A stretch of 64,000 bases of DNA from Geodermatophilus telluris (GTDB lineage: Bacteria; Actinomycetota; Actinomycetes; Mycobacteriales; Geodermatophilaceae), in assembly GCF_900102745.1 (NCBI RefSeq), contig NZ_FMZF01000001.1, positions 310,001 to 374,000 on the forward strand. The letters are read 5' to 3'. The notes beneath the pieces are model-generated. The model was given only the letters and a program-made list of their open reading frames with translations. It was not told where the DNA came from and did no database searches. A program made the translations under genes and the position numbers. The number at the start of each line of letters is the position of its first letter. Within the stretch, counting starts at the first letter, position 1. Positions 3,495 to 56,231 of the stretch are shown piece by piece.

Positions 3495-3551
3495 CTCCCC
3501 AGTCAACACAGCCGCCGAGGGCCCGGCACCCGCGGACGGGTACCGGGCCCA

Positions 3552-3670
3552 GGAACGTGCTGGAGCGGCCCCTCCCAGGGTCCCGGCCCGAGCGCGGCGA
3601 GGGACTGGAACGGCCTCGTCCCAGGGGCCCGCGGCGCGCGGAGCGCGTCGTGGGGAGGGACGAGGTCCTC
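3552..3670 (-). repeat. Stem-loop repeat element downstream of moeZ (two units)
   Basis: Directly after the moeZ TAG stop the minus strand reads GGACC, then the arm CCTCGTCCC (3657-3665, complement), a GC-rich loop ending in GGGCCCC, the arm GGGACGAGG (3614-3622) and GGCCGTTCC. The arms pair over 9 bp. A second, related unit (3555-3606, containing ACGTGCTGGAGCGGCC on the plus strand) follows. Its CCCCTCCC at 3569-3576 could alternatively pair with GGGGAGGG at 3652-3659. The same flanks and loop occur after ahcY and whiB with a different stem sequence. Most likely a transcription terminator belonging to a repeat family. Confidence 0.75.
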
Positions 3671-4831
3671 CTAGTAGGTGGGCAGCGTCTTGTCGATGCG
3701 CGTCGCCCACGCCGTCACGCCGCCCTGGACGTGGACGGCGTCGGAGAAGCCGGCGTTCTTGACCGCGGCGAGCACCTCGGCCGAGCGGACGCCGGTCTTG
3801 CAGTGCAGCACGATCGGCTTGTCGTTCGGCAGCTGCGCCAGCGCCCGGCCGGAGAGGATCTCGTCCTTGGGGATGAGCGTCGCGCCGGGGATGGACACGA
3901 TCTCGTACTCGTTGGGCTCGCGGACGTCGATGAGCTCGAAGTCCTTGCCGGCGTCCATCATGTCCTTGAGCTCGTCGACGGTGATCGTCGAGCCCGCGGC
4001 CGCCTCCTGGGCCTCGGCCGACACGACGCCGCAGAAGGCCTCGTAGTCGATGAGCCCGGTGATCGGCTCGCCCTCGGGGTCCTTGCGCACCGTGATGGTG
4101 CGGAAGGTCATCTCCAGGGCGTCGTAGACCATGAGCCGGCCGAGCAGCGTCTCGCCGATGCCGGTGATCAGCTTGACCGCCTCGGTGGCCTGGATGGCGC
4201 CGACGGTCGCGCACAGCACGCCGAGCACGCCGCCCTCGGCGCAGCTCGGGACCATGCCGGGCGGCGGGGGCACCGGGTAGAGGTCGCGGTAGTTGGGCCC
4301 GTGCTCGTCCCAGAACACCGACACCTGGCCGTCGAAGCGGTAGATCGAGCCCCAGACGTAGGGCTTGCCGAGCAGCACGCACGCGTCGTTGACCAGGTAG
4401 CGCGTGGCGAAGTTGTCGGTGCCGTCGACGATCAGGTCGTACTGGCCGAAGATCTCCAGCACGTTGTCGCTGTCCAGCCGCGTCTCGTGCAGCCGGACGT
4501 CGACCAGCGGGTTGATCTCCCGGATGGAGTCCCGGGCGCTCTCGGCCTTGGACCGGCCGACGTCGGACGCGCCGTGGATGATCTGGCGCTGCAGGTTGGA
4601 CTCGTCGACGGTGTCGAACTCGACGATGCCGAGGGTGCCGACACCGGCGGCGGCCAGGTACATGAGCACCGGCGAGCCGAGGCCGCCGGCGCCGACGGCG
4701 AGCACCTTGGCGTTCTTCAGCCGCTTCTGCCCGTCCATCCCGACGTCGGGGATGATGAGGTGGCGGCTGTAGCGGCGGACCTCGTCGATCGACAGGTCGG
4801 CGGCGGGCTCCACCAGGGGTGGCAGGGACAC
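3671..4831 (-). CDS. moeZ: Adenylyltransferase/sulfurtransferase MoeZ
   Basis: A 386-residue MoeB-rhodanese fusion. Residues 1-265 form a ThiF/MoeB adenylation domain: nucleotide-binding GAGGLGSPVLMYLAAAG, the LQRQIIH segment, and GTDNFATRYLVNDAC. SCAEGGVLGVLC carries conserved cysteines. Residues from about 290 form a rhodanese domain with active-site loop LHCKTGVRSAE, cysteine intact. MoeZ adenylates C-terminal glycines of ubiquitin-like sulfur carriers and converts them to thiocarboxylates for molybdopterin, thiamin, thioamide or CysO-dependent cysteine synthesis. GTG start with GAGGAG about 7 nt upstream. The stop codon abuts a stem-loop repeat that probably ends the transcript. Confidence 0.96.
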   Translation of the reverse strand: MSLPPLVEPAADLSIDEVRRYSRHLIIPDVGMDGQKRLKNAKVLAVGAGGLGSPVLMYLAAAGVGTLGIVEFDTVDESNLQRQIIHGASDVGRSKAESARDSIREINPLVDVRLHETRLDSDNVLEIFGQYDLIVDGTDNFATRYLVNDACVLLGKPYVWGSIYRFDGQVSVFWDEHGPNYRDLYPVPPPPGMVPSCAEGGVLGVLCATVGAIQATEAVKLITGIGETLLGRLMVYDALEMTFRTITVRKDPEGEPITGLIDYEAFCGVVSAEAQEAAAGSTITVDELKDMMDAGKDFELIDVREPNEYEIVSIPGATLIPKDEILSGRALAQLPNDKPIVLHCKTGVRSAEVLAAVKNAGFSDAVHVQGGVTAWATRIDKTLPTY

Positions 4832-44843: not shown

Positions 44844-44861
44844 CCCCTGGCGACCGGATGG

Positions 44862-44979
44862 AACGGCCCCCTCGCAGGGCCCCGCCACGGGCGGCGGTCG
44901 GCCTCCCTGCAGGGGCCCGCCGCGAGCGCGCGAGCGGTGGGGAGCAGGGAGGTCCTTACAGGGGGGCGAGGGGGTCCTT
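44862..44979 (-). repeat. Nested stem-loop repeat downstream of ahcY
   Basis: Outer arms CCCCCTCGC (44867-44875) and GCGAGGGGG (44966-44974) pair over 9 bp; inside, CCTCCCTGC (44902-44910) pairs with GCAGGGAGG (44944-44952). Both units carry the GGTCCTT and GGCC flanks seen after moeZ and whiB, and the inner loop is nearly that of the whiB copies. The element starts at the ahcY TAG stop. One repeat unit sits within another; probably a terminator. Confidence 0.8.
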
Positions 44980-46467
<1,488 letters not shown>

Positions 46468-55541: not shown

Positions 55542-55556
55542 CGGTGAGGTTCGGGG

Positions 55557-55809
55557 ACGGCCTCCCTGCAGGGGCCCGCCGCGAGCGGAGCGAGTGGTGG
55601 GGGGCGGTGACGTGCTGGAACGGCCTCCCTGCAGGGGCCCGCCGCGAGCGGAGCGAGTGGTGGGGGGCGGTGACGTGCTGGAACGGCCTCCCTGCAGGGG
55701 CCCGCCGCGAGCGGAGCGAGTGGTGGGGGGCGGTGACGTGCTGGAACGGCCTCCCTGCAGGGGCCCGCCGCGAGCGGAGCGAGTGGTGGGGGGCAGGGAG
55801 GTCCTTCTC
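55557..55809 (-). repeat. Tandem array of a 63-bp stem-loop repeat downstream of whiB
   Basis: Four copies starting at 55557, 55620, 55683 and 55746, almost without change. Each has the arm CCTCCCTGC (55561, 55624, 55687, 55750) and the AGGGGCCCGCCGCGAGCGG loop; only the last copy, nearest whiB, is closed by GCAGGGAGG (55793-55801) and GGTCCTT. The others end in GGTGACGTGCTGGA, also present in the moeZ copy. Four left arms thus compete for one right arm. The 343-nt space 55467-55809 holds this array and the terminator. Confidence 0.9.
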
Positions 55810-56145
55810 CTAGATGGCGCGGCGGCGGAGGCGGCGGCGCTCCCGCTCGGAGAGCCCGCCCCAGATGCCGAAGCGCTCGTCGTTGGCCAGGGCGTACTCG
55901 AGGCACTCGGCCTTGACCTCGCAGCCGGTGCAGATCTTCTTCGCCTCGCGGGTGGAGCCGCCCTTCTCCGGGAAGAACGCCTCCGGGTCCGTCTCGGCGC
56001 ACAGCGCCTGCTCCTGCCACGACTGGGCCTCGTCCTGCAGGGCCGCGCCGAGCATCCCCACCAGGCTCTGGTCGGGCCGGCCGGCGCTGCGCCCGGTCCG
56101 CTCGGCAGAGCCGATGTAGTCACTCAGCCACGAGACCTCTGCCAT
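55810..56145 (-). CDS. whiB2: WhiB-family iron-sulfur transcription factor (WhiB2-like)
   Basis: A 111-residue WhiB protein. Four cysteines (ALCAETDPEAFFPEKG, ICTGCEVKAEC) can bind a 4Fe-4S cluster; GIWGGLSERERRRLRRR is the beta-turn and basic C-terminus that contact sigma factor and DNA. Its place between the DUF3499/metallopeptidase genes and fbiA matches WhiB2 (Rv3260c; WhmD, WhiB), which controls septation. ATG at 56145 gives the family N-terminus. A consensus-like promoter lies about 85 nt upstream. Confidence 0.94.
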   Translation of the reverse strand: MAEVSWLSDYIGSAERTGRSAGRPDQSLVGMLGAALQDEAQSWQEQALCAETDPEAFFPEKGGSTREAKKICTGCEVKAECLEYALANDERFGIWGGLSERERRRLRRRAI

Positions 56146-56231
56146 GACGATGCGTCCCCTTCGCGGTCGTCGTCGGAGGCCAGGTCCCCGGGTCTCCCCC
56201 GGGCGTCCCCCCGTGCCTCGCACCGGTCGGA

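Follow-up and report, generated by a model that had tools for sequence, protein, structure and literature searches.

Three genes with a hairpin element behind their stop codons

The window, i.e. the whole stretch of 64,000 nucleotides analysed from Geodermatophilus telluris, carries a moeZ-like gene, ahcY and a whiB gene, each followed at its TAG stop by copies of a hairpin-forming element whose sense, like that of the three genes, is the minus strand (Table 1). The original prediction held that these copies keep their flanks and their TAG stops while their stems change in sequence, and on re-reading of the sequence this was present as claimed, with two small corrections. The outer stem (P1) of the moeZ copy differs from the others yet pairs; the whiB copy and the inner unit at ahcY pair CCTCCCTGC with GCAGGGAGG, and the outer unit at ahcY pairs CCCCCTCGC with GCGAGGGGG. 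As flanks, GGACC and GGCCGTTCC occur at all three loci, but the inner ahcY unit lacks GTTCC and ends with GGCCGACC. The GGGCCCC side of the loop, said to be kept everywhere, is replaced by GGGGCCCT in the outer ahcY unit. A TAG stands just ahead of the element at all three genes, with a gap of 0 nt at moeZ, 0 nt at ahcY and 3 nt at whiB. Partial units also occur in tandem, as at whiB (63 nt, 55544-55731) and as right halves at the ahcY genes of relatives (L189 and L195), in a manner that resembles slippage.

Table 1. Positions of the element copies and their host genes in the window
Feature	Position	Strand	Basis
moeZ copy of the element, full length with tail	3596..3670	- (gene sense)	CM match, 80.6 bits, E 1.3e-19, filters off
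moeZ TAG stop, abutting the element directly	3671..3673	-	Sequence and ortholog comparison
moeZ copy, 5' arm of outer stem P1, CCTCGTCCC	3657..3665	-	Sequence
moeZ copy, 3' arm of outer stem P1, GGGACGAGG	3614..3622	-	Sequence
Possible short second unit without interior, downstream of the moeZ copy	3551..3585	-	Weak CM match (16.2 bits, E 0.04) and sequence reading
moeZ-like host gene, ThiF and rhodanese domains	3671..4831	-	Pfam PF00899, PF00581
ahcY composite, outer element with inner element in its loop region	44860..44979	-	Sequence; further nested copies genome-wide
Inner (nested) element of the ahcY composite	44896..44957	-	CM match, 65.4 bits
ahcY, S-adenosylhomocysteine hydrolase, TAG at 44980-44982	44980..46467	-	Pfam PF05221, PF00670
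Full-length, tailed whiB copy, 3 nt after the TAG	55732..55806	-	CM match, 97.7 bits, E 2.7e-24
Three more tandem units (63, 63, 62 nt) without 5' arm, whiB	55544..55731	-	CM matches and sequence
whiB host gene, TAG at 55810-55812, start uncertain	55810..56223	-	Pfam PF02467

Anatomy, copy number and distribution

The element is about 75 nt long and consists of two stacked helices. Read in gene sense, the stop codon is followed, mostly after 0-3 nt (-2 to +3), by AAGGACC and the variable outer stem P1, and then by a C-rich strand, an inner stem (P2) and a loop of mostly 10-13 nt. After the loop come GGGCCCCT, the return strand of P1 and GGCC, to which tailed copies add GTTCCAGCACGTCACC or a near-variant.

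A loose pattern gave 13 matches within the window, a number that 16 of 100 shuffles also attained and that is thus not above chance. A tighter pattern gave 49 matches in the whole genome, 22 of them exact, and two in the reversed control. With a covariance model (CM) built from 22 copies, 144 matches at E <= 1, nested and partial tandem units included, were found in the 4.8-Mb genome among the best 150 candidates scored. This number is close to the true copy number, because 11 matches above 40 bits in 400 kb extrapolate to about 130 genome-wide. Genome G013 is denser, with 43 matches above 33 bits in 400 kb and at least 149 in the whole genome (149 of the best 150 candidates). Once 13 of the 144 copies are set aside, 131 have an intact 5' end, comprising 46 tailed copies, 44 of which lie at stops, and 85 tailless copies, 48 of which do. 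No Rfam family matched at its gathering score in the window; at 3500-3720, eight matches with E <= 10 were all far under the gathering scores.

The CM search of whole Geodermatophilaceae genomes suggested by the original prediction, with the best 43 candidates scored per genome, gave matches at E <= 0.001 in 101 of 112 genomes and in 9 of 12 genera. Without a match at this threshold were 11 genomes, namely all nine of genera g21 to g23, and G041 and G069, which belong to genera that otherwise carry the element. Matches were few in G047 (4), G057 (3), G091 (4) and G061 (12). A sample of 298 genomes from the order gave 54 with a match, 50 inside the family and 4 among at most 247 outside it; a smaller sample outside the family gave two marginal matches (E 0.002 and 0.008) in 16 genomes. 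A strong match in another family of the order (L334, G164 C17:89-162) has the sequence TGAAGGACC and is located at the end of a contig; this genome has two element matches (best E 1.9e-20), which may reflect transfer or contamination. The nearest named relatives of ahcY come from Geodermatophilus and Modestobacter (89-92% identical) and from a Geodermatophilaceae bacterium (93%), and the name Geodermatophilaceae for the family is based on these identities. Among 80 named ahcY loci, five had an element match above 40 bits, all in the Geodermatophilus/Modestobacter/Geodermatophilaceae group; one of the five is filed as Bacillus sp. AZ43, yet its ahcY is 91% identical.

Pairing is kept while sequence changes

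In a sequence-only alignment of 22 copies, both sides change in 11 of 17 pairs, and the covariation score was 0.402, compared with 0.123 for shuffled alignments (0 of 500 reach the observed score) and 0.04-0.084 for slid structures. The weakest measure in this alignment was the number of further pair types, for which 21 of 500 shuffles reach the observed value. P1 could be parsed in 137 of the 144 copies and pairs on average at 8.50 of 9 positions; 122 copies pair 8 or 9, and these contain 37 distinct 5' arms. When partners were swapped among all 137 parsed copies under the same best-match search, the mean was 7.10 and never exceeded 7.28 over 200 rounds; on average, 45.7 copies (maximum 60) reached 8 pairs. 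Both tests bear out the claim that pairing persists through sequence change, and the copies throughout the genome show covariation as well as adjacency to stops.

The strand opposite the message folds better

In P2, the non-Watson-Crick cells of 122 copies, read on the gene strand, comprise 128 A.C (G.T on the opposite strand), 10 G.T and 25 others. Among 90 distinct hairpins, the wobble direction is 95 vs 10 cells (p 1.6e-18, with cells that are not independent). P1 has no such asymmetry (11 vs 8 cells in 122 copies). The same strand preference appears in an alignment, A2, drawn from the 30 best-scoring copies, of which 29 were kept and one was omitted for an N; this is a non-random sample, the wobble count covering 122. 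Its first row is the moeZ copy, which is also one seed of the CM and for which the plus strand folds best. Read on the complementary strand, 98.6% of the cells in these 29 copies pair (0 of 500 shuffles), including 100% in the eight pairs of P2; on the gene strand, the same pairs are formed in 89.3% of cells (P2, 85.7%). Moreover, G.U is kept at specific pairs of the complementary strand, in 27/29 copies at columns 19-79 and in 22/29 at columns 37-58. On that strand the loop reads CGAG..GCGAG in 28 of the 29 copies and could form tandem G.A/A.G between G-C pairs, presumably a sheared tandem G.A motif. The exception is the moeZ copy, which has G-C and C-G at the tandem G.A positions. In the larger set, the tandem G.A pattern is kept in 104/122 copies and a Watson-Crick form occurs in four (ranks 30, i.e. 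moeZ, 35, 43 and 50). As both the wobble pairs and the loop point to it, the complementary strand, opposite to the message of the host gene, is most likely the molecule that folds.

With such a strand signature, one can ask which nucleic acid it is that folds. Sheared tandem G.A motifs are stable in RNA and in DNA, and the strand evidence is compatible with both DNA and antisense RNA and cannot separate them. If the complementary strand of the host gene were made into a structured RNA, this would suit the wobble pairs and the tandem G.A loop, both typical of RNA, and the G.U held at particular columns. Nonetheless, such an RNA would at most copies run antisense to the neighbouring gene (92/131 lie behind a sense stop), presence is patchy between relatives, and G.T is a milder mismatch in folded DNA too, so that we consider such an RNA unlikely.

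Arms that change together are also expected of a neutral repeated palindrome, in which template-switch correction during replication matches the arms without selection on structure, and the tandem partial units do suggest slippage. However, mismatches that such correction is expected to erase are fixed beside the varying matched pairs (on the gene strand, A.C in 114/122 copies and G.G in 94/122; one P2 pair is A.C there, and G.T on the other strand, in 67/122), and this process gives no reason for the direction of the wobble pairs. It seems very doubtful as an explanation.

In G013, 97 of the 149 copies found among the best 150 candidates lie on the leading strand, and genes in the 400-kb region are oriented similarly (233/368). 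Since the two shares are close, the copies give no independent hint of a single-strand mechanism coupled to replication, and a replication-strand bias was rejected.

The element begins at stop codons

Genes were called with our own codon-usage gene finder, a simple script. The location relative to stop codons, a check that the original prediction had called for, was non-random: where the 5' end is intact, 92 of 131 copies have their start within -3 to +8 nt of a sense stop. In contiguous regions, 10/16 copies of G000, 8/9 of G009 and 25/43 of G013 are stop-adjacent, where random intergenic placement expects 2.5-3.0%. The stops of the 92 element-adjacent genes are TGA in 63, TAG in 26 and TAA in 3, and TAG is in excess compared with element-free genes (44/406, 66/490 and 37/334 stops in three comparisons). 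The type of stop is coupled to reading phase over the 144 rows, TGA being in phase 2 in 56/67 and TAG in phase 0 in 23/27 (chi-square p 5e-11). Ahead of copies away from stops, a loose CAGTGG is common.

At the right end of the element, a convergent gene has its predicted stop within -25 to +6 nt in 29/144 copies. Inverted copies behind ahcY (L256, L258 and L208) have a TGA stop one base ahead of GGCC; thus the right end can also meet a stop. At tight same-direction junctions (<50 nt, with the element length subtracted), the element is rarer, with 6/43 junctions being tight where it is present vs 387/1057 where it is not (p 0.0018), and for that reason it probably costs something inside operons.

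Stop codons change together with the element

If the element is in neither genome, the stop codon differs in 27/203, 39/245 and 29/167 ortholog pairs (95/615 in sum). If it is in one genome only, the stop differs in 11/25, 6/12 and 11/21 (28/58 in sum). Change is thus about three times as frequent in one-sided pairs (pooled Fisher p 3.6e-8, for comparisons that share genes and are not independent), and each comparison alone gave p 0.0006, 0.008 and 0.0008. This test omits pairs with the element merely nearby (differing in 5/17, 0/6 and 3/13) or in both genomes (1/2, 0/1 and 1/2). In 18/25, 11/12 and 13/21 one-sided pairs, the unaligned C-terminal tails are equal in length. The moeZ gene of the window, for example, ends with TAC TAG, and its element-free orthologs in G009 and G013 end with TAC TGA; switches occur both ways, as TGA with the element where the relative has TAG was also seen.

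On landing, the element thus seems to rewrite the stop codon in many cases. The T of the old stop would be kept and the next bases taken from the purine-rich 5' end of the element, which may yield a new TGA, TAG or TAA. The suggestion that the element may supply the stop therefore gains from the phase coupling, the TAG excess and the ortholog comparison, but TAG is not the fixed stop that the three loci of the window had implied. Because the stop codon here changes with the element, the position of this stop-adjacent palindrome can be linked to insertion as well as to selection.

The ahcY locus and a possible role in the message

The C-terminus of ahcY was found in 28 of 30 family loci fetched. 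By our own reading of these 28 loci, 20 have a full sense copy at the stop, 1 has an inverted copy, 4 have remnants or broken copies and 3 have none; stems and stop codons vary among them. A further hairpin lies downstream of ahcY with or without the element, and is followed by a T-run in several loci; in G041 and G091 a bare ahcY stop is followed by that hairpin. Since this separate hairpin occurs in both situations, the element does not replace the candidate terminator at ahcY. A long-arm palindrome (about GGCATAGGAAGCTCTACCTGCGT and its inverse) was also seen behind ahcY at L192, L194, L200, L204 and L206 (genera g18 and g19), and is possibly a second hairpin family at the same site.

These data bear on the functional RNA structure that the original prediction had in mind, which at the 3' end of the host mRNA could be a terminator or stabiliser. 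Covarying stems in sense orientation a few nucleotides from the stop would suit such a role, as would the depletion at tight same-direction junctions and the frequency of the element at ahcY. On the mRNA strand, however, 10.7% of pair cells fail (P2, 14.3%), vs 1.4% on the other strand, which the wobble pairs fit. In addition, no T-run follows the stem, ahcY has its own hairpin, copies differ between congeners, and G041 and G069 have no match. Hence, a role in the host mRNA appears quite improbable. An intrinsic terminator was rejected as well, the stem being followed by a GTTCCAGCACGTCACC-like tail or other sequence with no regular T-run.

Copies come and go beside resident genes

The comparison used syntenic blocks of G000 (454 kb), G009 (368 kb) and G013 (400 kb); the long matches to G000 average 87% (G009) and 84% (G013) identity. 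A copy was scored as absent if the CM gave no match, by which old remnants could be missed, and this counts against the explanation preferred below. On that basis, copies of G000 with a syntenic pair in G013 were present in 6 and absent in 9 cases (6/15; one more without pair), and those of G013 were present in 6 and absent in 29 in G000 (6/35; 8 more without pair). Likewise, copies of G009 were present in 2 and absent in 7 in G000 (2/9; none without pair), and copies of G000 were present in 4 and absent in 8 in G009 (4/12; 4 more without pair), with two of these four present sites being spurious, as whiB tandem units matched a copy elsewhere. At several empty sites among the alignments listed, the gene ends in the same way and the junction measures 12 to 45 nt. 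Because relatives are often without a copy at the same gene, the element is likely to be mobile.

Nested copies occur at ahcY and at several other ranks. Four copies occupy one position within stretches that resemble one another at 88-92% over 0.4-1.2 kb. The copies are antisense in these near-identical stretches (L145, L147, L180 and L181, at G000 C3:723838, C3:814885, C8:149558 and C8:186182), and the one stretch of the four that was scanned has a DUF222 match on the strand opposite the element copy. A DUF222 gene of this kind is REP13E12-like, and from their sequence we read the gene copies as putative HNH-type genes; the element copies in them were probably duplicated after insertion. An autonomous carrier was rejected, as the four copies with shared flanks sit in DUF222 gene copies and not in a transposon. 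At ranks 33, 63, 74, 79 and 84 (G000 C2:517355, C2:757932, C2:54903, C3:87091 and C3:286286), a second repeat, about GGGACGTCGGGTGGGACGCGCCACGATCAG or a portion of this, flanks the element at one side, or at the opposite side if inverted; it looks like another palindromic dispersed repeat in which the element has inserted.

We think it fairly probable that the element is a mobile hairpin that folds in the strand opposite the message of the gene and inserts at or beside stop codons. It would spread by folding of that DNA strand, the folded molecule being single-stranded DNA rather than antisense RNA, and the pattern of presence and absence would mostly reflect insertion and not loss. An enzyme acting in trans might read the shape of the hairpin more than its sequence. 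Insertion at or beside a stop would do little harm to the host, and genes may tolerate the element because the stop remains in place.

Several findings count against a mobile hairpin at stops. Of the 131 intact-5' copies, 39 lie away from a predicted sense stop, including 6 nested copies and the 4 in DUF222 gene copies. Among the aligned sites listed, neither a target duplication nor a sharp 3' boundary was found, Y1, Y2 and integron-type enzymes went undetected in the element-bearing genomes searched, and folding of single sequences does not discriminate (the whiB copy has a z of -1.3 as RNA and about 0 as DNA). The full sense copy at 20/28 ahcY loci could also indicate a conserved function.

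Search for a mobilizing enzyme

Genomes of the family range from well over a hundred copies, through few, to none detected, and the missing enzyme can therefore be sought by association. The Y1 transposase (PF01797) was found in 0/108 family genomes, with 5 of 14 reference control genomes positive. The Y2 transposase of IS91/ISCR (PF04986) was found in 1/108, the element-free G082, and in 0/14 controls, so that this search has no positive control; an IS91/ISCR element was rejected on the ground of this sole match. In G082, an integrase-like frame lies beside the Y2 transposase (G082:C127:382-2234). Reverse transcriptase (RVT_1) matched in 48/108 genomes; a reverse-transcriptase-driven element was rejected, since the matches are patchy and missing in the element-rich G003, G006 and G007. 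The mobilizing enzyme is possibly one that is not recognised, or one that was active in the past.

A more specific proposal can be put forward tentatively, namely that the element is a hairpin transposon that moves as a single strand, lacks a known HUH (Y1/Y2) enzyme and is recognised by the shape of a one-strand hairpin marked by G.T and capped by tandem G.A. The stop codon would then serve as a general safe landing site, with the element writing the new stop itself.

An attC site of the integron type, whose folded strand is recombined by the integron integrase behind the stops of gene cassettes, would share with the element a structure kept while sequence varies, one strand that folds better and a place behind stops. 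However, the integron integrase (TIGR02249) was over the cut-off in 0/108 genomes, with weak matches in 108/108; the controls gave 0/14 over the cut-off and 14/14 weak, leaving the search without a positive control. The syntenic genes stay in place while the element beside them is present or absent, and no cassette movement was seen. The R' motif of attC is GTTRRRY, unlike the element's tail, GTTCCAG. Such an origin is barely conceivable.

Relation to known repeats

Passages of PMC3733652 describe REP palindromes close behind open reading frames (ORFs), in which the termini of GTAG REPs often supply a TAG stop; these REPs are thought to be moved by RAYT (Y1) transposases, and some lie inside genes. 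Against that description, the element is likewise high in copy number, dispersed, mainly behind ORFs, sometimes in genes and at TAG stops, but it is about 75 nt instead of 20-40 nt, has two stacked helices and favours TGA over TAG. Base counts of the 10 nt ahead of the element gave no fixed GTAG tag. A GTAG REP/RAYT identity was rejected, there being no such tag and no Y1 transposase in 108 genomes.

The CGTC REPs in the same passages have no dedicated transposase known, an 8-9 bp stem and varied stems and loops, and are assigned to five phyla, Actinobacteria not among them. As far as that description goes, the element resembles them in these structural traits and in its lack of a known transposase, and CGTC occurs in many of its tails. 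Unlike in CGTC REPs, its CGTC lies beyond the stem, after GTTCCAGCA, and is not a fixed terminus of tailless copies, and the loop and helix plan differ; CGTC directly at the end of an 8-9 bp stem was not found, as in tailed copies it stands at a distance from the stem, within the tail. According to a passage of PMC12306157, REPs at most 15 nt from a stop stall ribosomes.

The element is like integron attC sites, whose bottom strand is used (in a passage of PMC2727003), in that one strand folds better and structure is kept above sequence. MIRU, in a passage of PMC12548453, is said to insert at start codons and to couple its inner ORF to the gene. By that account, the element is similarly actinobacterial, short, apparently mobile and placed at gene boundaries with little harm, but its anchor is the stop codon, and not the start codon.

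Among the open-access papers listed for Geodermatophilaceae repeats or stop-linked palindromes, none describes the element by its title and the beginning of its abstract, and the main text of a family-wide genome paper (PMC9686282) mentions palindromic repeats, in the portion consulted, for CRISPR only. REPs adjacent to stops are already known; what is new in this element is its size, the strand that folds, the loop motif and the rewriting of the stop.
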